A stretch of DNA of 34,213 nucleotides, taken from positions 1-34,213 of IMG/VR virus record IMGVR_UViG_3300010883_000187; one strand, given 5' to 3'. Position 1 is the stretch's first letter. Every line of letters starts with the position of its first letter. The DNA is from a virus. The notes beneath the pieces are model-generated. The model did not search any database, was not told the origin of the DNA, and saw nothing but the letters and a program-made list of their open reading frames with translations. The translations under genes and the position numbers were made by a program. This document shows positions 5,281 to 24,282 of the stretch, piece by piece.

Positions 5281-6153
5281 ATGAATAATAGTTTGAAAGA
5301 ATCGCTTGACATAATGTGTACTGTTTGGGCTAACAATGGAGGTGGCTTTGCTTACCTATCAGAAAATAATGGTCAGTGGAAAGATCACAAAATAAATTGG
5401 GCAAACTATCTTAAACTAAAAACATTTGTTTACAACCAAAATTCAAAATCAGACATCTATTGGACACCACTTTGTTTTGAGGATAACAATTCTAGAAAAG
5501 CTGTCAATGTTAAAAAAGAGCAAGGGTGTCTTTTCGTTGATGTGGATGAATTAAACGTGGAATGGAAAGGTGGAATAAAATTAGCACCAGAGCCATCAAT
5601 AGTTTGGACTACAAGTAAGACAAGATGGCAGGGAATTTGGTTGCTTGATGATTTGATTACTCTAAAAGAGCAGCAAGATATGAACAGAAGGTTGGTGTAT
5701 CACATCGATGCAGACAAAGGTGCTTGGGACGCTGCAAGAGTACTAAGAGTTCCTGGATCAATTAATGCTAAAAGAAATGGTGTGGTTGGCAAGATAAAGA
5801 AAATGGATCCTGAATGTTATTATACTTTGGATGATTTTGACGCAATACCTAATGTTGCAGACACAACAATACTCGACAAAAAATTACCTGAAAAATTGTC
5901 GGAATTTAAAGTTAGTGAATTACCTTTAGAAGTACAGTACTGGGTAACTATGACACCTGAGGAATACAGAAGTCACAACGATATAGATAGAAGTGAATTA
6001 ATTTATAAGTTGTCTATTAAATTAATTAAAAATAAATTTTCGGTTGAAGATACATTTTCTATATTGCAGGGTACACAATTTAATAAATTTAAGAACAGAC
6101 CTGAAACATTAATAAAAGAAATACAAAAAGCAGAATTAGTCGCCAACAGATAG
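5281..6153 (+). CDS. AEP-type DNA primase (RepB/Prim-Pol-like)
   Basis: A 290-aa protein with the archaeo-eukaryotic primase core: a strand and turn IYWTPLCF (59-66), the DxD metal site LFVDVDE (84-90), the second motif WTTSKTRWQGIWLLDD (109-124, a diverged S-x-G-x-H-x-Y strand), then ADKGAWDAARVLRVPGSINAKR (134-155), typical of RepB-like primases of plasmids and phages. It should make primers, possibly also extend them, at the replication origin. The C-terminal 90 residues resemble a helical primase C-terminal domain. The start follows TTGGAGGATA. It stands alone on the plus strand between two leftward operons; its likely helicase partner is the RepA-like gene at 11743. Confidence 0.8.
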   Translation: MNNSLKESLDIMCTVWANNGGGFAYLSENNGQWKDHKINWANYLKLKTFVYNQNSKSDIYWTPLCFEDNNSRKAVNVKKEQGCLFVDVDELNVEWKGGIKLAPEPSIVWTTSKTRWQGIWLLDDLITLKEQQDMNRRLVYHIDADKGAWDAARVLRVPGSINAKRNGVVGKIKKMDPECYYTLDDFDAIPNVADTTILDKKLPEKLSEFKVSELPLEVQYWVTMTPEEYRSHNDIDRSELIYKLSIKLIKNKFSVEDTFSILQGTQFNKFKNRPETLIKEIQKAELVANR

Positions 6154-6355: not shown

Positions 6356-7348
6356 TTATACTTTAACTTTACTTTTGATTAATGTAGGTAAACCATAACC
6401 AAATACATCCCAAGTTAATTTGTTAAGATCAGATACTGTCATATCATTTAGATTTTGAAATAATCCAAATGGCTCAGTAGCTTCAGATAACAAGTATTTT
6501 ATTTCATCATTTACAAATGGGCTAATGTCATAATTTTTACTTGTAGAGAATATATTTAGATTATCATTGTCAAATGTGTGCATAACTATTTGATTAGGCA
6601 CTTTATTTGCTTGCTCAACAATTTCATCAAAATCATCAAATAATGATGGATCATCGTTTGAACTACTAAGATAATCTGCTATGCTCCCATGTTGTTCAAT
6701 TATACTTACATAATCTGTACCACTATATACATAACCATCATCCCAATTGTAATCACAAGTTAGATTGTCATACGCGTAATTTGTAACTAGATTACGAGAT
6801 TTGTAACTACTATTTGAAAACCAAATACCATTTTCTGTTATACCTAAGTTTTCATTGATAATATAAGTATTTTTATTAAGTACTGGATTAGTAGTTTGAA
6901 ATACCATTTTATCTGTGTTAATAATCTCACCTATAAATTCTCTAACTTTTTTGCTACCTAAAAAGTTCGGTTGCATATTTTTGAGAAATACTTTATTAAA
7001 CATTCTAGTATCGCTCATAGCTACAGTAGGCTCAACACAAGTTAATACACCATTATGTGCAAACACCGTATTATCGTCAACTTTGAACGGATGACAATTT
7101 TCAATGTCTGTATTACCTGATGTTGCAATACGACAATGTATTAATATGTCGCTAGTTTTACTATGTTCTTTTTGTATATTCATAACATTTGATATGAATT
7201 CACTACTTATCATAGTTTTATATATTTCTATCTCATCATCTTTGATGTATGATACACCAAATCCATGAGAGTTATTGTTAGTCATATTTTTTAGTGTTGA
7301 TTCGTTTATTACACCAACACCTTTTGGGATATTTGCTATTATACACAT
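6356..7348 (-). CDS. Class II glutamine amidotransferase
   Basis: A 330-aa protein of the N-terminal-nucleophile amidotransferase fold. Cys2 directly after Met is the expected catalytic residue. Supporting motifs are NSHGFGVSY (26-34), HCRIATSG (71-78), CHPF (85-88), FAHNG (96-100) and SDTRMF (112-117). Such enzymes release ammonia from glutamine and pass it to a partner. The TAATG overlap with the amidoligase gene strongly suggests the two act together, with this protein supplying ammonia or trimming a gamma-glutamyl bond. Residues 190-330 are an acidic C-terminal region I do not recognise. It is the last gene of the leftward operon. Confidence 0.85.
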   Translation of the reverse strand: MCIIANIPKGVGVINESTLKNMTNNNSHGFGVSYIKDDEIEIYKTMISSEFISNVMNIQKEHSKTSDILIHCRIATSGNTDIENCHPFKVDDNTVFAHNGVLTCVEPTVAMSDTRMFNKVFLKNMQPNFLGSKKVREFIGEIINTDKMVFQTTNPVLNKNTYIINENLGITENGIWFSNSSYKSRNLVTNYAYDNLTCDYNWDDGYVYSGTDYVSIIEQHGSIADYLSSSNDDPSLFDDFDEIVEQANKVPNQIVMHTFDNDNLNIFSTSKNYDISPFVNDEIKYLLSEATEPFGLFQNLNDMTVSDLNKLTWDVFGYGLPTLIKSKVKV

Positions 7349-9188: not shown

Positions 9189-9393
9189 TTTTATCCTTTT
9201 TTATAACTTGTACAACTTTTATAGTTGTGTAGCCGTCTTTAAACGCATTTACGTGTATTTTTGTTTCATCAAATGTATAACGTTTTTTAATACAGAACCA
9301 TAGTTCTTGTATAAGTAACGTCAACCATTCATCGTCTGTACCACCGTTAGATGGTATATCTTGTTGTTGAAGTTCGTATCTGATGTTTGTCAT
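9181..9393 (-). CDS. Unknown 70-aa protein
   Basis: A small soluble protein (starts MTNIRYELQQQDIPSNGG, ends VIKKDKND) with a central WLTLLIQELWFCIKK helix and two likely strands. No family is recognised. Its ATG overlaps the stop of the 105-aa gene (TAATG), and AGGTAGG lies upstream. It is the second gene of the amidoligase operon. Confidence 0.65.
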   Translation of the reverse strand: MTNIRYELQQQDIPSNGGTDDEWLTLLIQELWFCIKKRYTFDETKIHVNAFKDGYTTIKVVQVIKKDKND

Positions 9394-9710
9394 TACAAAC
9401 CTACCTGTAAGTTGCTAACAAATTCTGGTTGATTTTTAATAGCTAATTGATAACTGTCAAATATCCCACGATCATCTGCAACTTTTGCACGTCTGGTTGT
9501 CACGCCGTCGATATAGAAAAAGAAATAATAACCTCTATCTCTTTTATTTTTAAAGTATCTAACTTCTTGTATTGTTAGATGATTGTGCACAATACTCCAT
9601 ACATATTTTGTAGGGTATTTGCGTGGTCCACCGAAGTCTGGAAATCGCATAACACGATTACTAACTTGGCGTATAGATGCACCGTCTGGCACATTATATT
9701 TTCCGCTCAT
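9393..9710 (-). CDS. Unknown 105-aa basic protein, first of the amidoligase operon
   Basis: A 105-aa protein starting MSGKYNVPDGASIRQVSNRV. It has clusters of aromatic and basic residues (RYFKNKRDRGYYFFFYIDG) that suggest a small beta-sheet nucleic-acid-binding fold, but no family is recognised. I chose this start because GGAGGTAATT lies directly before it; an in-frame start 57 nt upstream has no such site. The 19-bp palindrome begins 28 nt upstream, so this gene is directly under its control. It could be the regulator itself. Confidence 0.65.
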   Translation of the reverse strand: MSGKYNVPDGASIRQVSNRVMRFPDFGGPRKYPTKYVWSIVHNHLTIQEVRYFKNKRDRGYYFFFYIDGVTTRRAKVADDRGIFDSYQLAIKNQPEFVSNLQVGL

Positions 9711-9738
9711 AATTACCTCCATATAATTATTACAATAA

Positions 9739-9757
9739 GTATACAACTGTTGTATAC
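9739..9757. promoter_or_regulatory. 19-bp palindromic operator
   Basis: GTATACAACTGTTGTATAC is a perfect inverted repeat of 9-bp arms about a single central base. It lies upstream of the leftward amidoligase operon and contains TATACT on the minus strand, usable as a -10 box. A dimeric repressor bound here would block the promoter. No clear -35 is seen. Confidence 0.6.
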
Positions 9758-9791
9758 CTACTAACACACAACATTGATAATGCGTTAGTAG
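9758..9791. other. Hairpin adjacent to the operator
   Basis: CTACTAAC and GTTAGTAG make an 8-bp perfect stem, with CATT and AATG forming a further 4 bp inside. It abuts the 19-bp palindrome. It could be a regulator site or part of the leader region. Confidence 0.4.
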
Positions 9792-9919: not shown

Positions 9920-10006
9920 TTAATTGAATAAATCCATATGACATCCATAACATAATCTATCAATTAAATCATGTTCTAGACTGTCACATAGATAACATTT
10001 CACCAT
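9920..10006 (-). CDS. CxxC-CxxC micropeptide (28 aa)
   Basis: A 28-residue frame starting MVKCYLCDS with a second pair CYGCH, so C4-C7 and C19-C22 form a minimal zinc-knuckle pattern. Its ATG shares one base with the TGA of the 140-aa gene (TGATG), indicating translational coupling. It ends before a terminator. Likely a small metal-binding adaptor; the partner is unknown. Confidence 0.55.
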   Translation of the reverse strand: MVKCYLCDSLEHDLIDRLCYGCHMDLFN

Positions 10007-10428
10007 CAGATTAACGAACTAACTTTTTGTTCAACTAACTCAACTTTACCAATATGAATCTTTTGATAATTCTTTTTAGTTTTTTCATCATAACTATCTT
10101 GACATCCATGAAAGTCAAACATAACTTTAACCGCACTATCCTCATCAACAGAATACCAATTCTGAGCTGGTCTATCTTTGAAGAAAGATTTAAGTTGCTC
10201 TCTAATAGCATTATATTGTGGATTTTTAGATACTGTAATATCTGCACCTCTACTAACATTCATGCCTTCAACACCGAAATCTAATATAATAGAGACACCA
10301 CCTAAGTATCTCTCACCAGTCATCGGATTTTGACGAATTGGAAATTCTAAATTATAAGAACCACCGCCTTTATTTTGATATGGTACTAATAAACCTACCA
10401 TTTTAGTATATTGTGTATCATCACTCAT
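10006..10428 (-). CDS. Unknown 140-aa protein beside the structured RNA locus
   Basis: A 140-aa soluble protein with predicted strands (MVGLLVPYQ, VSIILDFGVEG, AVKVMFDFHG, IHIGKVELVEQ) and a helix at IREQLKSFF. No family is recognised; the beta-rich form would suit a small DNA- or RNA-binding protein. The ATG follows AGGAGGTTAAA. That Shine-Dalgarno sequence is also the outermost part of the terminal helix of the neighbouring large structured RNA, in opposite sense. It may be an early gene near the origin. Confidence 0.65.
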   Translation of the reverse strand: MSDDTQYTKMVGLLVPYQNKGGGSYNLEFPIRQNPMTGERYLGGVSIILDFGVEGMNVSRGADITVSKNPQYNAIREQLKSFFKDRPAQNWYSVDEDSAVKVMFDFHGCQDSYDEKTKKNYQKIHIGKVELVEQKVSSLI

Positions 10429-10433
10429 TTTAA

Positions 10434-11130
10434 CCTCCTAGTTAATTGTTTATTTGTTGATAACTGCGCATGTTCATACTGCGACACTATGGAAATTACA
10501 ACTCGTACCAGCGGTCTGCAGAAGAAAAACGCACCGGTCTGCAGTCGCTTTGTTTGAAGACTTGTGCGTTTTTCACTCGAAGACATCTGGGACGAGTTGT
10601 AATTGGAACCCGTAGGGCATAAGCACTCAAGTGATCTACCAAAAATGGCGGCTCTGCCGGTATTTTTGGTAGTCATACAAAAACAAAGACTCGAGCTCGA
10701 TGCTCGTGCAGCAGCAGAATATTAGAACATCACTTACTGTAGACACTGTGGCTGCTGCATTTTTCGTCGACTTTTTGTACGCAGCTTGAGTGCTTTCTGT
10801 CGGTGTGGAACCAACTAATTGAGACCGGAGGGAAATAAGTTACAGAGATATGGCAAATCTTGACAACGCCTGAGTGGAGCGATTGTGGATTGCTCGTAAA
10901 TAAGGAGCGCTTGCGAGATTATTTACAATTCATGATTGTGTAACGAAGTCTTGCTTGCGTTGATTTACTCTTGTAAACAAGATAGCTTGCGGTTGGCATG
11001 TCGGCGATAACTTGGTTGAGTGGAGAGTCTCATTTAGTTCAGTGGAACACTTACAGACCTATGTAGTTTTGTAGTATGGTTATGCGCTGTTATCAACAAA
11101 TAAATAACTAACAAACAATTAACTAGGGGG
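10434..11130 (+). ncRNA. Giant structured noncoding RNA candidate (about 700 nt)
   Basis: No gene fits, yet the region folds as one nested structure. The closing helix pairs 10434-10448 with 11116-11130 (15 bp), 10449-10464 with 11089-11104 (16 bp, TTTATTTGTTGATAAC), 10466-10471 with 11082-11087 and 10475-10480 with 11073-11078. Inside lie three arms. Arm 1 pairs 10494-10506 with 10592-10604 (13 bp) and 10524-10534 with 10564-10574 (11 bp). Arm 2 is closed by 10621-10631/10785-10795 (11 bp) and holds hairpins 10636-10672 and 10677-10778. Arm 3 is closed by 10796-10806/11047-11057 and 10813-10825/11027-11039. Outside one internal loop, the imperfect positions that still pair (six) are G-U if the plus strand is the RNA and none is if it is the minus strand, so plus is favoured. 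GOLLD and ROOL are known phage RNAs of this size; I cannot tell whether this belongs to either. Confidence 0.7.
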
Positions 11131-11460
11131 TTGTCGCTAACAATATAACTAAGCATAACATATCGTGGTTTCTTTGGTTAAGCTTTCTTTTTAAAGAAAG
11201 GTGGTCTTAGATTTTTTGGTCAACCTTTTGTATCTTTACAAAAGTTTGTTGCAACTTGTTTGCAATTAAAATGTTTTTATTTTAAACTTTCTTTCTTGCT
11301 TTATAAACAAGGAGGGAGGCACGACTGACATTGTTTATAATAGGGAAGGGGGATCTTAGGTCACCAAACAAGAGAACAAGACAAACGACGAACATAAGAA
11401 GCCCCTTCCCTATACTAAGGAAAGTCCCCACATTAATTTTGCGAAAACCCTTAAAAACTC
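11131..11460. other. Intergenic region with long hairpins
   Basis: No convincing gene. Perfect stems are CTTTCTTT/AAAGAAAG (11183-11200, 2-nt loop), CTTTTGTA/TACAAAAG (11225-11244), TTATAAACAA/TTGTTTATAA (11301-11340, 10 bp) and ATAGGGAAGGGG/CCCCTTCCCTAT (11340-11351 with 11402-11413, 12 bp). The last has a further TCTTA/TAAGA stem inside. It may extend the large RNA or be a separate RNA or origin element. The GGAGGGAGG in the third loop is purine-rich. Confidence 0.55.
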
Positions 11461-11537
11461 TCAAAAACCTATATATAGACTGATTAATACATATATTGAT
11501 CATATATCCTTTACTAAGTCCCCTAAACAGAGTCCCA
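11461..11537. other. AT-rich stretch before the iterons
   Basis: The 11465-11512 stretch is almost wholly A and T (runs of ATATAT and TTAATA). Beside an iteron array and a helicase gene it is a natural candidate for the DNA unwinding element of an origin. Confidence 0.4.
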
Positions 11538-11700
11538 TTAGTCCCTTAGTCCACTCTAAAGAGTGGACATAAGTGGACTAACTTTGGCATTCTTAAAAAC
11601 CCTTATAGCTACTGGACTAAACATGAAACACTAGTAAACATTTGTGTTAGTTAGTCCAGGTGCCTTTGGACTAACTTTAGTCCATAACCTGTTGGACTAA
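11538..11700. repeat. Iteron-like array, probable replication origin or operator cluster
   Basis: Seven exact copies of TTAGTCCA or its complement TGGACTAA lie at 11546, 11574, 11613, 11651, 11667, 11677 and 11693, plus one-base variants near 11538 and 11564. Orientation alternates. Copies 11667 and 11677 form an 18-bp palindrome (TGGACTAACTTTAGTCCA), and 11549-11568 is an 8-bp hairpin built on the same core. Iterons upstream of a RepA-like helicase are typical of replication origins. The alternating order could also suit a repressor. Confidence 0.65.
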
Positions 11701-11720
11701 AATTACAGGTGTTGTAGTAT
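11692..11720 (+). promoter_or_regulatory. Candidate promoter for the helicase and late operon
   Basis: TTGGAC (11692-11697) and TAGTAT (11715-11720) are 17 bp apart, a sigma70-like spacing with imperfect boxes. The -35 lies inside the last iteron, so iteron binding would control transcription. The leader to the helicase ATG would be about 15 nt. Confidence 0.45.
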
Positions 11721-11742
11721 AACAATACGAATATGGAGGAAT

Positions 11743-12837
11743 ATGATTGTACCAGAAAGACTAAAGCTTTTATTAAAGCACCATCGGCAGGCAGATAACT
11801 ATCGTAAGTTAAAAGTCCTGAAGGGCGAAGACGTTACCAAGATAAAACCACCTGAATGGCTTATTGAGGATTTTATTATGGAAGAGGGTTTTACCGTACT
11901 GCACTCAGATGCAGGTGTAGGAAAAACATTTTTAGCTTTAGACTGGGCTAATACCATAGCCAATGGCTGGACATGGTTTGGTAAGAAGACACAGAAGACA
12001 ACAGTTTTATATGTACTAGCCGAAGGAATTGGGTACTTAGGTGCTCGTGTGAACGCTTGGAAGAACAGGAGAAATGCCTCCATATTTCCACCTGTCTTCT
12101 ATTACACGAGCGCGGTACCCTTATTTGCTCCACCAGGAAAACTTCCTACAACTGAGCAGCTAGATTTTTTAGACTTAGTTGAATCTGTGGACCCAGGACT
12201 TATTGTTATTGATACATTGCAGAGATGTACAGTTGGTGCTAATGAAAACCTGCAACAAGATATGGGTCAAGTGGTGGCTATGATAGATACACTAAGGCAA
12301 AATTTTAATACAGCTATCTTAGCAATACATCACGACACAAAATCTGGAGAGAGCATGAGAGGATCTTCTGTTATACGAGCATCAGCAGATACGACGATTC
12401 ACTTAACTGCACGAGGACAAGACTCTGGCTTTATAGAAATGGAATGTACTAAACAAAAAGATGCTGAGCCATTCAAGCCATGGTCTCTTATGTTAACTGC
12501 TGATAAAGAGAGTGGCTCTGCAGGGTTGAGTGCGTACCAAGAAGGTGTAAAAGCAAGAGATTACTCTCTGCTAAAAGCTTTAGGTGACATTACGACACAT
12601 AGAGGAGAGAAATTCTTTAATAAGGCTTGGAGAGAAGCTGCAAATATGGAGGGAGGTCGTTTTGAACGTCCAAAGGCTCAGCTTATCAGGGAAAACCTCG
12701 TAGAGCAAACTGGTGAGGGAAGATCTAAACAATATAGTGTAGCTAAGGAGGGTTGGGATATAATAGAGAGTGAAACTTCTAGACCTGTCCCTAGAGTTGA
12801 ACAGGTACAGGAGTCTCTGTTAGAGGAGGACGAATGA
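11743..12837 (+). CDS. RepA-like replicative helicase (AAA_25/RecA-fold ATPase)
   Basis: A 364-aa protein. Walker A is HSDAGVGKTF (54-63), Walker B is GLIVIDTLQ (152-160), and HHDTKSGESMRGSSVIRASAD (196-216) is the characteristic third block of RepA-type hexameric helicases. After about residue 270 a winged-helix-like tail follows (FFNKAWREAANMEGGRFERPKAQL). The enzyme should unwind the origin and drive the fork, working with the AEP primase and the iteron array upstream. The start follows ATGGAGGAAT. Its stop overlaps the next small gene (ATGA). It heads the long rightward block that continues into packaging and structural genes. Confidence 0.85.
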   Translation: MIVPERLKLLLKHHRQADNYRKLKVLKGEDVTKIKPPEWLIEDFIMEEGFTVLHSDAGVGKTFLALDWANTIANGWTWFGKKTQKTTVLYVLAEGIGYLGARVNAWKNRRNASIFPPVFYYTSAVPLFAPPGKLPTTEQLDFLDLVESVDPGLIVIDTLQRCTVGANENLQQDMGQVVAMIDTLRQNFNTAILAIHHDTKSGESMRGSSVIRASADTTIHLTARGQDSGFIEMECTKQKDAEPFKPWSLMLTADKESGSAGLSAYQEGVKARDYSLLKALGDITTHRGEKFFNKAWREAANMEGGRFERPKAQLIRENLVEQTGEGRSKQYSVAKEGWDIIESETSRPVPRVEQVQESLLEEDE

Positions 12838-16652: not shown

Positions 16653-17075
16653 ATGGCTGAAGGACCGTCACAGATTACTGACTTAGGTGGTTTACCGCAA
16701 GGAGGTAAACAAGAAATAGAAAATATGGCAGCTAATGCTGGTATGTCTTTAGGAATTCAAGGAGATAATTCAGTACCTAGTGCTGGAGCTCAAAGAATAT
16801 CTCCTCAAGCTCCTGGAAGTTTAAGTTTAGGTGGCATTGGAGACTTTGTAGCTAACTCTCCTAATCAAGGTGGATTTGCTAGTGATGGTTTACCATTTGG
16901 TCAAGGTATGGGAGTTCAAGCTCCACCTATAACAGAATTAGAACAACAACGAGCAACTGCAATAGACAACGCTATGGACTTGTTCGCAAATTCAAAAATT
17001 CCAGCGGTTAAAGCTGCCGCAGCCCAAGTAATTAGAGGAGCAGTTATTTCTCAGTTGCAGGGCGACGATGAGTGA
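16653..17075 (+). CDS. Gly/Pro/Gln-rich protein after the portal
   Basis: A 140-aa protein of low complexity in its first two thirds (Gly, Ser, Pro, Gln) with a short helical end (ELEQQRATAIDNAMDLFANS and following). GGLPQGG at residues 12-18 repeats the tail of the portal protein. The ATG follows AGGAGGTTA and its end overlaps the giant gene by 8 nt. No family is recognised. A flexible portal-associated or head protein is likely from position. Confidence 0.6.
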   Translation: MAEGPSQITDLGGLPQGGKQEIENMAANAGMSLGIQGDNSVPSAGAQRISPQAPGSLSLGGIGDFVANSPNQGGFASDGLPFGQGMGVQAPPITELEQQRATAIDNAMDLFANSKIPAVKAAAAQVIRGAVISQLQGDDE

Positions 17076-20000
17076 AAAACCTTTAGAGAGTGAAAAACCT
17101 TTAGAAGATAAATTAAAAGAGGACTATAAATATTCATGGGAAGACCAAGAATATGATGGTGCTCTAAGTTATCATTTACCGTCTAAAAAAGATTTAACAA
17201 ATTATTATCCTCCTTCTACAGGAAATGTACAAGATATGGAAAAAGCTATCTTACATACTCAAGGAGAAGTGCCTACAAATTGGGTTATGAGTTTGACTCC
17301 AGAAGAAATACAAGAATTAAATGACCTCAGTCCAGAAATGATAGAGCATCTTCCAAGAGTTTTTGATTATTACGAAAATAATAAAAATTCTACAAAAGAC
17401 ATAGAAGATACTGCTAAAAGAAAAACTGATTGGAAAGCACTTAGTAGTAGATTTGGAGCAGCTCTTTCAGCAGGAACTCCTGGAATGGCTGGAACTTCTC
17501 CTATTACAAAACCATATGATTTTGAAAAAGGATACGAAGAATCTTTAGATGAAGTTACTCAACAAAAATTAGGAGAAGCTTTGTCTATGTTCGAAACGCA
17601 AGATAAATCAAATGAGTTAGTTGTGAACGAAAAAATACCTAACAATGTTCAAGAAGGCGCGATGGGTAAATTATGGAATAGGATAAAAGAAAACGCAACT
17701 AGCCAATATAAATCTGGAATATATTTAGGGAATGCAACTTTCTTTCCTGAAAGAATGAACGATACTGAAGTACCAGAAGAAATGTCTTTAATGAGTCCTT
17801 TAACTATATCAATACAGATAGGAAAATTTTTAAGTTACGTTGGAACTGCATTTGTCGGTCAAAATGATACAAATAAAAAAAATTCAGGATTTGAAGAAAA
17901 CCAAATTTCAGATATTGAGAAACAAAGAGACCAATCTATTAATAATTTTAAAGCAGTTCAAGGAGACGTGACGTGGGAATCTTTAAGTAAAAACGATCCA
18001 ATATTTGCTCAAGAAATTTTAAATTTGCCTTTTGTGCAAGGAGATAATGCCAAAGCTAAAGCGATAGTAACTGTAATGGTAGAAGCAAACAATCCTGAGC
18101 TAATGGATGCTAACAACGAATTTGTAGAAGCTATTCATCAAGCATTTGCAGAAACAATTAAAAAAGTTGCTTCTGGTGAAGACTCTGTTGGAGATTTAGT
18201 AGTTAACGGTTTAGGGGCGTACTCTAAGTATTTTGTGGGAAGTATGTCTACAGGAGCTTTTTTACTTTCAACAGAAGAAGGACAAAAAATGGCTGCTGAA
18301 TTTGGTAATAAGAAAGGGAGAAAAGAATATTATAATTTAATTAAAAAAATGGATTATAAACCTTCAGAAGCTATTGGTATGAATGGAACTTTTTCAGGCT
18401 CTATGATAGATATTGGAACATCGTTTGCATTTGATCCGACAATATGGTTATTAACACCAGCAACTGGAATTAGAGCAGGAGCAGTAAAACAATTTGCTCA
18501 CGTAAAATATATAAAAGGATTTATGAACAAAGGGATAGGAAAAGCATTTGCTGATGACCTTTATAAAATTTTAAAAGAAGGAACATATTTACAAAAAAGA
18601 GAATTGCTTAGAAACTTTTCAGATGCTAATCAAGGTAGATTAAAAAACATTGTTAAAGATGATCTTGCTAGAGGCACCTCTGAAATCACAAGCGAAAGAT
18701 TTTATAAAGTTTATACAGATACTTTATTGCAAGGAGACAATCCTTACATATTTCACAAAACTTATTGGAACAAATTTAAAGCACAAAGAAATGTAAGACT
18801 TATGGAAAATGCTTTGAATGGTGATAAGAAATCATTAAAAGCTTTTGGTAAACTATTAACAACTAAAAATATTTCAACCAAAGTTAATCTTGCTGGTCCT
18901 AACGCAAGGAGAAATATTATGGAAGCTATTGAAAGTATGGTTCATGGTACTAAATTACCTGAAGGAGAAATCCAGAAGTTAATGCAAACATTAGATGATT
19001 CATTAGAAGAATTGTTTCAAGCCACTTTAAATAATGGAACTAACTTTAATGGAAGTGCTTTAGCTGCACTTAGACTAAAAATAATTAATCAATCTGATTT
19101 AATAAACTTTTTTGAAATGGGAGCGTTAGGAAAAAATCCAAGAAATATTGTAAAGAATTTAGGAGACGACAGTACTGTTACTGGTCAATCTATTAATAAG
19201 AATTTAGATGAGAAAAACCTAGTAAATGATGTTCCCAAACCTAAGCTTGACTTTGACACAGTCGGAAAACTTTTAACAAACGCTAAAAAGAAATTAAAAA
19301 CTTTAAAAGCAGAAGGTGCAGCAGAAGATATTATTTTATCTCAACAAGCGTGGGTTAATAAATTACAAAAGACTAAGTCATCTGGTATTGTGAGACCTCG
19401 TAAAGGGCAGAAACAAGGAGAGGTTAAAGATTACGATCAATTTGATGTAGAGCAATTATTTAATGATGAAAGTTTTATGGGTAATGCTACAGGTAGAGCT
19501 CAAATGCAGAGATTATTAGATGAGGCTAGCGAGTTATCCGGTATAGCGAAAGGGTCTAAAGAATCTGTAGAAGGTGCAAAAATGTACACTAAATTCTTAG
19601 ATGACTTTGATGCCAGAATGCAAGAAATAGCTGAAGGGGCTGGAAAAGGTGTAAAGTTTAAAAATGTTGAATTATTAGTTAAAAGAGAACATAGAAAACT
19701 TCTTAACAAATTAGACAAACAAATGAGAGATTACCATAAATTGCTAAATACTTCTATTAGGTCTGAACAACAAAAGGTTATGCAAAAAGCTCTAGACACT
19801 CTTGTCTACAAACTAGGTTGGGATAAACTTGATAACTTACAAGGTGGTTGGTTTACTTTGGAAAAAATTGGAGATAATTTATATGATCAAGCTAAAAAAA
19901 TAAAATTTAAAGGACAGAAATTAGAAAACAATGCCGAAGGAAGGCGTATAGCTCAAGAAGAAGCTAAAGGTTCAGATGTTTACTTCATAGAAAACCCGAT

Positions 20001-23000
20001 TAAAATTACAAAAAACAAAGCTGGAGAATTAATTGATATAGACATAAATTGGGTAACTCTTAAAATTATGATGCAGTACAAAGACGAAGTAGGTGCCGCA
20101 TCATCAGTTCTTAGAGGACAAGCAAAATTTTTTGATAAAGGTCAGGGAAAAAAATTTATGCTTAACGAAGCAGAAGACGCTTTCTTAGCTTCTGGTAGAA
20201 AATACGATTCTCGTTTAATACATGAACTTAAAAAAAATGAAAAATTTAAAGGACGAAATACTGAAGAAATAGAAGAACTTGTAGCACAATTTATAGGAGA
20301 CGTTAGAAATACTAGGAGAGCTACTAATCAAGTTGTCGAAGGAGAACTTCCTATAAGCCCTATGGAATTCTTTGTGATAAATCAAGCAAAAGAAGGAGGA
20401 AAAAAGAATGTAACTAATATAATGAGAAGGCTAAATGCTGAAGGTTGGTATCAAAAAGTAGCAAATTTTAACAAAGCTTGGACTATGGACAAAGTTGCAA
20501 AAGCAAGTACTGCTTTTGTTGCTGCTTTTGACGAAATATTCTTTTACAAATCTATTTATGGTTGGAAAGGTACTAGAAAAGATTATATTTTTAATAGAGG
20601 CGTTAGGAAAAATTTAAGAGAAATTAGAAAACTTGGTGGAATTGATGCAGCTATGAATAATCCAAAATTAAGAAAAGAAATAAACGAATGGATTCACGAG
20701 GCTTTGACAACACAACAACAACTTCCTATAGAAGTTGCTCAACGTTATAAAATAGGATTTGATAAAGACTCACCTATAGAATTGTTAAAAAACACAGACG
20801 CTGGTTTTTTCCAATATGCTACTCAACACATTGATTCTTTGTTAAATGATTACGGATTTCAAGAATATGCTTTAGCAATAGATAAAATTAAAAAATTGAA
20901 AGTTGGTAAAGATTTAACAAAAGCTCAACTAGATGATCTTATTAAAAAAGGAACTGACAAAGATTGGGTAAAATGGTTTGGAACTTCTGATGCAGATTAC
21001 TTAAAAGGTTTAAAAATGTTTGGTTATAAACAAGGTGACGGTATGGCTACACATGTAGGAATCAAACAACCAGCCGTTCCTTACCAACATTATTTAGTTA
21101 ATTCTGAAGAAGGTTGGAAATATTATGAGTCGATGAAATCATGGTATACATTAGGTGTTCCTGCAGACAAAGTAGATAGTGTTTGGAATGCTTTTCTTAA
21201 AGCTGCAAAAGAACGAAAATTAGGTACAAATCTAAAAGCTCTACCAGATAAAAGTGTTATCGGATACCTAAAAATTCCTGGAACTAAAAAACCAAATGGT
21301 TTTTTATCCAATAGAGGACTAGCAAAAATTACTGGTAGAGAGTCAAGTGTAATGGAGCAAATGTTTGGTAATCCAGCTTGGAACAGAGCTAATTTAATTG
21401 CTAACAAAGCTCATGCAACAAGAAAAGAACAATTAATAGCTTTGTTTGAATCTCAAGGGAAAAAAATTATTAATAGTCGAGAGATAGGTAAAGATTTATC
21501 TATTCAGGCTCAAGCAGTAAATCCAAGATATCAATCAGATATTTGGGGTATGTCTTACTTTGATGAAAATTTGTTTAAAGCTGGTTATGTAACTGATGAT
21601 TATATTGAAGCTTTAGCAGCAGATTTTGCTACTAACGAAATTGATGACATGATGTTAAAGTTTCATTTAGCTACACCATTGGGTAAAGATTTTAGATTAC
21701 TTGCTCCATTCGGTGGTCCTTGGGCTGATTTTATGGGAAGATATCTTAAAGATTTAACTAGGCGTTCTCAAACAAGAGGAAATTGGACGGCTTTTACAGA
21801 TGAGAAAACTGCTTCAAATTTTATTAAATCTTCAATAAATGACACATTAAATTTTGTTCCTAATCTTAGAAGACATGGTTATGTTTCAAGAATTGCAAAT
21901 GCTGAACTTCAAGGATCTGTAAAAAATCCATTACACAATGTTGGTCAAGGATATGGAGAAGAAAACATTTATATTGATTTCTCTCCTTTAACATTCTTAC
22001 CTAATGGAGACAACGCTATGTTTGTCATAAATCCAATAGGTGGAGTTATACCTATGGCGTTAATAGGAACTATGATGAATGTTCTTGACGATGAAAAATA
22101 TAGTGAGTTACAAGATACTATAGAAGATTTGTTTCCTTCTCAAACTTTTTTCCCACCAAGTGAGCAATGGAGACATAATATAGGATCTACTGCACTAGAT
22201 TTTGTTTTTGGAGGCGGCGTTATAGATTCTGCTCTAAGAGTAGTACCCTTTGTAGCGTCAGCTTTAGGTATGCAAGAAACTCCACAATCAATAAATGATG
22301 TTCCAACATCTTTAAAATATGGTAGAACAGAAAATAATCGTTTATATGACAAAACAAATGTAATTATAAATGCAGAAACTAATTGGGACAATATTGGAGC
22401 TTTTATTGATTATGTAAATACTATTGCTAAGGATACAAGAAACCATGCTGGTTTGGCTATAGCTTCAGGAGCCACAATAAGATTGGGTGTCCCTTTAAAT
22501 GTTGGTTTTTCAACAAGATATGTAGATGTAGCAGATAACTGGATTTCTTTCGGTAAAGCTGCTGGTGTGTTTGAAGATGTTGTGAAACCTGCCTCATTAG
22601 AAGAATACAGAGCGAATCCTTACAACGAAGACAACAAAATTCAAGTGTTAAATAATATTAGATCATGGTGGTTTAATTTAGGAGATACTACTGAAGGTAG
22701 AGCTAAACAACTTTTATTGCAAAAACAACACCCAGAAGTAATTTCTTTAACAATTCCTGGTTATATTGTTACTGAAATAGGTGAGAGATTGCTAGTAAAT
22801 AAAGAAGGTAAACTTTACCAACAAGGAGAAATTTTTAGAACTGGTACTCAAGACAACTCAAATCAATATAAAGATTATTTAGCAGAAGGTTTAATTTCAG
22901 TTAGATTACCTGATGAAAAAATAAAACACATAATTCACGAAAATGCTGGTTTTAATGTTAACGCAGTAAATGTTATTTATGACCGTCTTGCTGAAATTGC

Positions 23001-24282
23001 AAATGAACAACAACTTAAATTAGTAGAAAGACTTGCAGAAAGACAAGGTTTTACTGCAAGTGAACTGATAGTTGATGCTGATTTAAGAGAAACTTATGGT
23101 ATAGAGTTTGCTTCAGATGATGTACAAAATTTAGAAGACATTTCTGAAAAATTATTAAAGTCATACACTCTTGAGCAACTAGGTCCTGATGTTGTTGGTT
23201 TAATACAAGAAGTAACACAAAACTCTGACTTAGAAATTATAAATGGTAGATATAATGTTTATCAATTAATACCGCATTTATATGCTGCACAAAAAGCTGG
23301 AAAATTAAATCCTGCATATGTGTATTCTTCTCAAGACCCTGCTGATCAACAATTTAATAAAGGTATGGCATTGTTGTCAGGTTTAACTAAAGCCAAAATG
23401 GTTTTTAATGAAGAGTCTGATGGTCCTGATCAATTAAAATTTTTAGAAAGATTTGAAAGAAAAATGTTTGCACTTAAAGAAGAGTGGGAAAGCACCGATG
23501 GTCAGATAGCTAACAATGATGATTTGCAAGATATCGTAGATGATGTTTTTGAAACATTTACAATATTTAACCACATTATGGGAGACATTTATTCCTTTGA
23601 CGGATCAAACGTATTAAGCGGAGAACAATGGTGGAATTTTTATGTTAAGCCAAATTTTAAAGCTTTGTCTTTAGAATGGAAGCAACCTGTACCATCTGAG
23701 GGTACTGTGAACAACGCTACCTTTAATGTCACTTTAAGTGATGAAGACCAAATAGCTGAGTTTCAAACAATTACTTCTAAGAAACCATTTAGAGCTATAA
23801 AGATTAAAGCAACCGACAGCAACGTTCCTGACGGTGACACAATAAATACAATGTACTCAAATATGGATGTAGATGCAGTTCGTGTTATAGGAATTCAGGC
23901 TTATGAAATGGACCTAGACCCAACAGAATATCCAGAAGAAAGTGAAATAGCTATTACTCAAAAAGCATTCTTACAACAACTTGTCGATACCTATCAAGGT
24001 AGATTGTATTATGTTACTGACCCTAGGTTCGGTAACGATAATAGAAAAGATCTGTATGGTAGGGTGTTAGGTTGGTTATATATAGAAAATGGATTAGATG
24101 GAGATTTAGCAGATGGCACAGGAGAATATGTATTTTTCTCAGACCACTTTAGTCCAGCTGATAATTACTATAATATAAATAGTGATAAGCCTTCTATATC
24201 TGGCGATTACTCAACAGACAATGACAACATTAAGTGGGATTTAAGAGAATTTACTGATATGATAGAGGTTGAAAATGATTGA
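17068..24282 (+). CDS. Giant virion protein with C-terminal staphylococcal-nuclease domain
   Basis: A 2404-aa protein, the largest gene in the window. The N-terminus repeats SEKPLE twice. The bulk is helical with Lys/Glu-rich stretches; hydrophobic Gly-rich segments lie in the first third (GSMIDIGTSFAFDPTIW) and around 1640-1740 (FVINPIGGVIPMALIG). Residues about 2250-2350 are a staphylococcal-nuclease fold: PDGDT (2254-2258, metal Asp), VRVIGIQAYE (R2272, E2280) and DLYGRVLGWLY (R2332). The second metal Asp is replaced by Gln2277. With the transglycosylase gene downstream, it is probably an ejected internal protein that reaches the cytoplasm; some polyvalent or tape-measure-like role is possible. 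The gene overlaps both neighbours by 8 nt. Confidence 0.75.
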   Translation: MSEKPLESEKPLEDKLKEDYKYSWEDQEYDGALSYHLPSKKDLTNYYPPSTGNVQDMEKAILHTQGEVPTNWVMSLTPEEIQELNDLSPEMIEHLPRVFDYYENNKNSTKDIEDTAKRKTDWKALSSRFGAALSAGTPGMAGTSPITKPYDFEKGYEESLDEVTQQKLGEALSMFETQDKSNELVVNEKIPNNVQEGAMGKLWNRIKENATSQYKSGIYLGNATFFPERMNDTEVPEEMSLMSPLTISIQIGKFLSYVGTAFVGQNDTNKKNSGFEENQISDIEKQRDQSINNFKAVQGDVTWESLSKNDPIFAQEILNLPFVQGDNAKAKAIVTVMVEANNPELMDANNEFVEAIHQAFAETIKKVASGEDSVGDLVVNGLGAYSKYFVGSMSTGAFLLSTEEGQKMAAEFGNKKGRKEYYNLIKKMDYKPSEAIGMNGTFSGSMIDIGTSFAFDPTIWLLTPATGIRAGAVKQFAHVKYIKGFMNKGIGKAFADDLYKILKEGTYLQKRELLRNFSDANQGRLKNIVKDDLARGTSEITSERFYKVYTDTLLQGDNPYIFHKTYWNKFKAQRNVRLMENALNGDKKSLKAFGKLLTTKNISTKVNLAGPNARRNIMEAIESMVHGTKLPEGEIQKLMQTLDDSLEELFQATLNNGTNFNGSALAALRLKIINQSDLINFFEMGALGKNPRNIVKNLGDDSTVTGQSINKNLDEKNLVNDVPKPKLDFDTVGKLLTNAKKKLKTLKAEGAAEDIILSQQAWVNKLQKTKSSGIVRPRKGQKQGEVKDYDQFDVEQLFNDESFMGNATGRAQMQRLLDEASELSGIAKGSKESVEGAKMYTKFLDDFDARMQEIAEGAGKGVKFKNVELLVKREHRKLLNKLDKQMRDYHKLLNTSIRSEQQKVMQKALDTLVYKLGWDKLDNLQGGWFTLEKIGDNLYDQAKKIKFKGQKLENNAEGRRIAQEEAKGSDVYFIENPIKITKNKAGELIDIDINWVTLKIMMQYKDEVGAASSVLRGQAKFFDKGQGKKFMLNEAEDAFLASGRKYDSRLIHELKKNEKFKGRNTEEIEELVAQFIGDVRNTRRATNQVVEGELPISPMEFFVINQAKEGGKKNVTNIMRRLNAEGWYQKVANFNKAWTMDKVAKASTAFVAAFDEIFFYKSIYGWKGTRKDYIFNRGVRKNLREIRKLGGIDAAMNNPKLRKEINEWIHEALTTQQQLPIEVAQRYKIGFDKDSPIELLKNTDAGFFQYATQHIDSLLNDYGFQEYALAIDKIKKLKVGKDLTKAQLDDLIKKGTDKDWVKWFGTSDADYLKGLKMFGYKQGDGMATHVGIKQPAVPYQHYLVNSEEGWKYYESMKSWYTLGVPADKVDSVWNAFLKAAKERKLGTNLKALPDKSVIGYLKIPGTKKPNGFLSNRGLAKITGRESSVMEQMFGNPAWNRANLIANKAHATRKEQLIALFESQGKKIINSREIGKDLSIQAQAVNPRYQSDIWGMSYFDENLFKAGYVTDDYIEALAADFATNEIDDMMLKFHLATPLGKDFRLLAPFGGPWADFMGRYLKDLTRRSQTRGNWTAFTDEKTASNFIKSSINDTLNFVPNLRRHGYVSRIANAELQGSVKNPLHNVGQGYGEENIYIDFSPLTFLPNGDNAMFVINPIGGVIPMALIGTMMNVLDDEKYSELQDTIEDLFPSQTFFPPSEQWRHNIGSTALDFVFGGGVIDSALRVVPFVASALGMQETPQSINDVPTSLKYGRTENNRLYDKTNVIINAETNWDNIGAFIDYVNTIAKDTRNHAGLAIASGATIRLGVPLNVGFSTRYVDVADNWISFGKAAGVFEDVVKPASLEEYRANPYNEDNKIQVLNNIRSWWFNLGDTTEGRAKQLLLQKQHPEVISLTIPGYIVTEIGERLLVNKEGKLYQQGEIFRTGTQDNSNQYKDYLAEGLISVRLPDEKIKHIIHENAGFNVNAVNVIYDRLAEIANEQQLKLVERLAERQGFTASELIVDADLRETYGIEFASDDVQNLEDISEKLLKSYTLEQLGPDVVGLIQEVTQNSDLEIINGRYNVYQLIPHLYAAQKAGKLNPAYVYSSQDPADQQFNKGMALLSGLTKAKMVFNEESDGPDQLKFLERFERKMFALKEEWESTDGQIANNDDLQDIVDDVFETFTIFNHIMGDIYSFDGSNVLSGEQWWNFYVKPNFKALSLEWKQPVPSEGTVNNATFNVTLSDEDQIAEFQTITSKKPFRAIKIKATDSNVPDGDTINTMYSNMDVDAVRVIGIQAYEMDLDPTEYPEESEIAITQKAFLQQLVDTYQGRLYYVTDPRFGNDNRKDLYGRVLGWLYIENGLDGDLADGTGEYVFFSDHFSPADNYYNINSDKPSISGDYSTDNDNIKWDLREFTDMIEVEND

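Follow-up and report, generated by a model that had tools for sequence, protein, structure and literature searches.

A gene-free stretch of about 700 nt in the genome of an uncultivated, apparently marine phage folds into a large multi-arm structure, and selection acts on the fold of its plus strand. The stretch was found in an IMG/VR virus record of 34.2 kb (34,213 nucleotides, here called the window, meaning the whole length of DNA analysed). Whatever molecule does the folding, the fold has been kept while the sequence has turned over between nearly identical phages. We favour folded single-stranded DNA (ssDNA) as that molecule and rank a large noncoding RNA closely behind it.

The structured domain and its surroundings

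The domain (10434–11130) lies between a leftward gene for an SSB-like protein (10006–10428) and a rightward helicase-terminase operon that runs from 11743 onward. Its plus strand has a minimum free energy (MFE) of -276.4 kcal/mol, with z-scores of -10.6 to -12.3 in three runs; the minus strand has an MFE of -233.9 kcal/mol and a z-score of about -12. The remaining 700-nt segments of the contig scored between +2 and -4, with the exception of 1701–2400 (-5.8) and of 10201–10900 (-6.1), which overlaps the element. Segment 1701–2400, the second most structured stretch outside the element, holds a likely terminator near 2203–2237.

A sequence-only reading of this DNA had described a structured stretch of some 700 nt with a long closing helix, an 11-nt bulge and three arms, all of which are present in the MFE fold. 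The 5' arm of the terminal helix (10434–10484) pairs with the 3' arm (11069–11130) in two outer segments, 10434–10450/11114–11130 (17 bp) and 10451–10464/11089–11102 (14 bp), with the 11-nt 3' bulge (11103–11113) between them, followed by two inner segments, 10466–10472/11081–11087 and 10474–10484/11069–11079. The helix opens with CCTCC (10434–10438), the complement of the Shine-Dalgarno sequence of the leftward gene, whose start is at 10428, and it ends with AGGGGG. Nested inside it on the plus strand are arm 1 (10494–10604), a mini-hairpin CCC-GTA-GGG with a C-GNA-G loop (10609–10617), arm 2 with its two sub-arms (10621–10795), and arm 3 (10796–11057), which contains a GGAG-CGCTTGCG hairpin near 10904. 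Downstream on the same strand lies conserved hairpin A (11302–11339; pattern match 11307–11334), consisting of a helix, a 3'-side bulged A, one base pair and a tandem G.A; related hairpins occupy the same place in most relatives. It is followed by conserved hairpin B (11340–11413; GGGAAGGGG ... CCCCTTCCC) and by a conserved block, GTCCCCACATTAATTTTGCGAAAACCC (11420–11450), which occurs in 27 IMG/VR stretches, their contigs being among those recovered with the helicase gene.

Neither a coding region nor a known RNA accounts for the element. The longest stop-free frame is 98 codons, the larger frames are unmatched at the same place in the relative L013, and no open frame is common to the two. 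The sequence-only reading had suggested GOLLD or ROOL as possible identities and a model search of Rfam as the check. That search does not bear out membership in either: cmscan returned no family match for the window and nine relatives, with the gathering scores of GOLLD, ROOL, OLE and HEARO not reached, and a cmscan of 10350–11750 up to E=5 gave unrelated chance matches only. ARAGORN found no tRNA in the window, and so no tRNA island.

The same reading placed the stretch in an origin region, and the neighbouring features agree with this. Eight TTAGTCC sites in both orientations, from a total of 11 in the whole contig, form an iteron-like cluster at 11538–11700 that is adjoined by an AT-rich stretch, and GC skew turns at 10–12 kb; judged from the sequence, the cluster and AT-rich stretch are probably a replication origin. 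The gene at 11743–12837 encodes a RepA-like hexameric helicase (AAA_25; Pfam E=8e-32), and 5 kb to the left of the element a plus-strand gene (5281–6153) encodes a RepB'-type primase (Pfam PF16793, 25.6 bits against a cut-off of 24.3; PHROG 3123). The primase matches the N-terminal half of PHROG 3123 and the helicase its C-terminal half, and by these matches the primase-helicase is split in the window phage. The leftward gene beside the element encodes an OB-type, SSB-like protein of 140 aa (PHROG SSB, E=9e-4). Its AlphaFold model has a pLDDT of 72.5, and many of the top Foldseek matches are bacterial SSBs, all of them weak (best E=0.05); the predicted structure of the small protein of relative L006 (pLDDT 38) was too poor for use. 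Elsewhere in the window, the structural operon includes a gene for a 2404-aa protein (17068–24282) whose only match, a weak one to an endonuclease, lies close to the C-terminus; it is possibly a virion protein that is ejected, and 6356–7348 encodes a glutamine amidotransferase class II-like protein (Pfam GATase_4), which is unusual for a 34-kb phage.

Sequence turnover and conservation of the fold

A protein search with the helicase identified 33 relatives. In every relative that was folded, this position is occupied by a gene-free, structured region, with plus-strand z-scores of -10.4 (L013), -13.3 (L006), -11.5 (L016), -6.1 (L018), -12.9 (L024), -7.1 (L053), -4.2 (L054), -3.8 (L056) and -6.6 (L063), and of -6.1 for a 270-nt region in L020. 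The sequence itself is barely shared. Among the relatives, blastn found the window's element in L013 only, and the others have in common with the window just the part from about 11170–11390 onward; blastn against isolate phages found no sequence homologues of the element, and scans with the terminal-helix sequence and with the downstream block recovered no contig beyond those found through the helicase. L006, L008 and L011 are 94–97% identical to the window in the helicase and in a protein further left (9393–9767); what differs between these near-identical flanks is the leftward gene as well as the structured domain. By this comparison the structured domain is a hypervariable cassette that is exchanged together with the leftward SSB-like gene. 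Since a fold is kept here while sequence turns over between nearly identical phages, whatever recognises the fold can be sought among the genes that are swapped with it. The relatives have no empty site; another folded stretch holds the position instead, which argues against a transposon or MITE.

A closing helix is found again in several lineages; ACCTCC, the Shine-Dalgarno complement, forms part of it in the window, L016 and L018 and lies opposite AGGGGG or AGGTGG. In 13 of the 33 related contigs (L007, L009, L010, L014, L015, L017, L021, L022, L023, L027, L030, L032 and L033) the sequence ends no further than 1.3 kb upstream of the helicase, within the structured region or next to it, where assembly breaks are to be expected because of hypervariability or strong hairpins. 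L016 and L031, with helicases 88% and 65% identical to that of the window, share a single 55.7-kb IMG/VR contig (3300029448_000050), which may reflect a tandem arrangement, co-assembly or a chimera. The window's major capsid protein is about 33–37% identical to those of pelagiphages HTVC026P, HTVC111P, HTVC112P and HTVC202P, and the host assignments of the MAG bins that hold relatives conflict (Flavobacteriaceae, Pelagibacter and Gammaproteobacteria).

Covariation, which the sequence-only reading had named as a check, was found in two families. L013 carries the same element at 90% identity, and 13 pairs have changed on both sides with pairing kept; in a strand-neutral fold without G-U, 12 pairs are doubly compensated, compared with 0–1 when partners are slid. 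In arm 1, a run of pairs has been replaced on both sides (CCAG/CTGG to GTTT/AAAC; A1 columns 119/221, 123/217 and 129–132/208–211). The mini-hairpin has the L013 counterpart CCC-GGA-GGG, and L013 has a full tandem-GA motif (667–689) corresponding to the arm 3 hairpin. A second family (L053, L060, L054, L056 and L059), whose helicase is about 65% identical to the window's, has a consensus fold in which 38 pairs are doubly compensated; counted as cells, 32 are compensated, compared with 1–3 in slid controls. Within the group of L006, L008 and L011, paired sites change three to four times more slowly than unpaired sites (0.013–0.018 vs 0.046–0.068), a contrast hardly visible between the window and L013 (0.10 vs 0.12), and the wobble-type departures from pairing are GU, never AC. 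Covariation of this kind is characteristic of large structured RNA and is equally expected of a folded DNA strand.

Strand signals and the nature of the folded molecule

Mismatches and hairpin motifs identify the plus strand as the one under selection. Among single mismatches in helices common to the folds of both strands, 30 are of the type tolerated on the plus strand (GT, GG, TT, AG) and 7–8 of the complementary type (p 0.003–0.008 against composition); a strict stem finder intended for neutral mismatch counts yielded too few stems. Helix-internal wobble-type mismatches comprise about 20 G.T and 5 A.C. About 25 copies of a recurrent hairpin, built of a helix, a 3'-side bulged A, 1–2 bp, a tandem G.A, a further 1–2 bp and a tight loop, lie on the plus strand of the loci scanned and one on the minus strand; nearly all are in the structured region, with up to five in one element (L063). 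Hairpins with stems of at least 4 bp and C-TT-G or C-GNA-G loops number 17 and 9 on the plus strand and 3 and 0 on the minus strand (26:3), where shuffles lead us to expect about 1; the C-GNA-G hairpins come mostly from L018 and the L053–L063 families, and the window has one. Selection for one strand's fold, as claimed from the sequence alone, is thus upheld and indeed strengthened. The further step, from asymmetry to RNA, does not follow, since the asymmetry expected for RNA is equally expected for a folded single DNA strand.

Four tests lean towards DNA. The six wobble positions on which the sequence-only reading relied are all G-T or T-G on the plus strand, as it stated. In one correction to that reading, G-U is depleted rather than abundant in the window (4.8% of helix-interior pairs vs 16% in shuffles). 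The share is 8–13% in most relatives, where shuffles give 13–17%, and depletion (5–13% vs shuffles) extends to eight of the nine lineages, L053 being the exception. By contrast, G-U in rRNA and RNase P is near the shuffled level, this yardstick consisting of rRNA folded only by MFE. With DNA parameters, z-scores are as extreme as with RNA parameters (window -12.2, L016 -14.9, L018 -10.3), whereas those of most E. coli rRNA pieces and of RNase P move from about -3 to -5 to between 0 and -3. The hairpin loops also differ: on stems of at least 4 bp, 10 kb of element holds a single GNRA loop, whereas E. coli rRNA and RNase P, at half the length (4.8 kb), have five, along with one C-TT-G and no C-GNA-G loop. 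Measured against MFE-folded rRNA, the G-U level and the GNRA/UNCG loops both appear low for a large structured RNA. The C-TT-G loop (G-CUUG-C) is favoured in RNA too; the C-GNA-G loops belong to the d(C-GNA-G) family, of which ultrastable DNA mini-hairpins with the sequence d(GCGNAGC) are known (PMC4686876). Finally, a promoter search in and before the element found none that recurs near the 5' end, with scores mostly at or below those of shuffles. A comparison of GU with other single mismatches did not discriminate between RNA and DNA, the ratio for the element being indistinguishable from that of rRNA put through identical folding.

A new class of large phage noncoding RNA, transcribed rightward with a hypervariable 5' domain (10434–11130) and a conserved 3' domain (11302–11450), is a serious possibility, although we consider it rather less probable than otherwise. 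By analogy with GOLLD it would be a structural RNA or an RNP scaffold, perhaps with several protein-binding tandem-GA hairpins. The plus-strand asymmetry, the recurrent tandem-GA/bulged-A hairpin, the G-CUUG-C loops and the slow paired sites of the L006 group with their GU and no AC changes are all what such an RNA would leave; the excess of G.U over A.C (about 20:5), which a DNA strand also explains, is given equally by RNA and to that extent counts against an exclusive ssDNA reading. Large abundant phage noncoding RNAs are known, among them GOLLD and ROOL (PMC12286853) and an ICP1 RNA of about 800 nt (PMC7567579). In L019, L020 and L024, moreover, a terminator-like hairpin (GAGTTGG..CCAACTCTTTTTT), absent from the window's alignment row, lies just upstream of the helicase start codon and suggests rightward transcription there. 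Against an RNA stand the lack of a recurring promoter near the 5' end, the depletion of GU, the replacement of GNRA by C-GNA-G and the lack of an Rfam match. If the element is RNA after all, it represents a new giant phage RNA class outside Rfam; a single locus would then offer several divergent natural versions, which suits structure work.

Two further explanations fare worse. The fold might be a functionless by-product of mutation, its inverted repeats created and perfected in the origin region when templates are switched at stalled forks (quasipalindrome correction). The dominance of Watson-Crick pairs in the helices, the joint change of paired runs between the window and L013 in arm 1, and the high z-scores on both strands are consistent with this. 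Such a process would be strand-neutral, however, whereas the plus strand is strongly favoured by the mismatch types, by the loops and by the tandem-GA motif; the recurrence of the closing helix in several lineages and the slow change of paired sites in the L006 group also argue against it, and we regard it as improbable. Least probable of all is a long 5' UTR of the leftward operon, in which pairing within the terminal helix of the minus-strand RNA would hide the Shine-Dalgarno sequence of the SSB-like gene, and the fold would serve as a translational switch. The Shine-Dalgarno complement in the 5' arm of the helix in the window, L016 and L018, opposite AGGGGG or AGGTGG, fits such a switch, and for the L053 family a comparable pairing can be traced by eye. 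Yet the middle pair in the window and L016 is U.G on the plus strand and would be A.C in the minus-strand RNA, all strand signals favour the plus strand, and the arrangement in L006 is different. A promoter within a stem, as in Frpo, was rejected because the best minus-strand promoter scores were within or below the range of shuffles in all eight lineages.

A single-strand-origin-like proposal and known systems

Our preferred reading, to which we give not quite an even chance, is that the element is a very large folded ssDNA on the plus strand, single-strand-origin-like (sso/ssi-like), beside a double-strand origin. Going by gene content only, the phage would use RSF1010-like strand displacement for its replication: the helicase, primase, TTAGTCC cluster and skew turn are the parts expected of such a replicon, the primase match lying just above its cut-off. 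The displaced plus strand would fold at the element, and the fold would keep the region free of SSB, be read by a priming or helicase-loading protein, or both. What such a protein recognises may be less the sequence than the shape, with its tandem-GA hairpins and its tight hairpins of the C-GNA-G and C-TT-G types. This proposal would account for near-complete sequence turnover with a persisting fold, and for the swap with the SSB-like gene. To our knowledge, sso, ssi and Frpo elements are about 40–350 nt long, and we know of no precedent for 700–1000 nt; if it is ssDNA, no other folded functional ssDNA element known to us comes near it in size. More tentatively still, we propose that it is a natural 0.7–1 kb multi-arm ssDNA 'machine', conserved in shape, nearly free in sequence and swapped as a cassette with its own SSB-like gene; it would be to DNA what the giant ornate RNAs are to RNA.

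Among known phage RNAs, GOLLD likewise is some 700–800 nt or more, with a conserved 3' part and a variable 5' part (PMC12286853), but the element has no Rfam match and no tRNA genes nearby, and its RNA nature is only a candidate one; GOLLD and ROOL lie near tRNA genes frequently, though not universally. The RNA of about 800 nt in ICP1 also comes from an orf-less phage region of about 1 kb (PMC7567579); it is transcribed and lies by the lysis cluster, whereas the element lies in an origin-like region. Among ssDNA elements, Frpo of conjugative plasmids is a fold directly upstream of an SSB gene in which the folded strand serves as the template (PMC11541004). The element differs in that no -35/-10 pair recurs in it, in being much longer, and in belonging to a tailed phage and not to a conjugative plasmid. 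The closest likeness under our preferred reading is to the sso elements of rolling-circle plasmids and ICEs and to ssiA and ssiB of RSF1010, which are likewise orientation-specific folded ssDNA in a replication region; their function follows fold more than sequence, and sso elements share little sequence, a new sequence with the old fold still being functional (PMC4595007). The RepB' protein of RSF1010 primes on folded ssDNA at hairpin ssi sites (PMC4434180), and the window has genes for both a RepB'-type primase and a RepA-type helicase. As sso and ssi elements require, a strand-specific fold is found beside a replication origin, the origin here being a probable one. Known sso and ssi elements span about 40–340 nt; the element, for which an sso-like function is predicted, extends to 700–1000 nt, with at least three arms and a closing helix.
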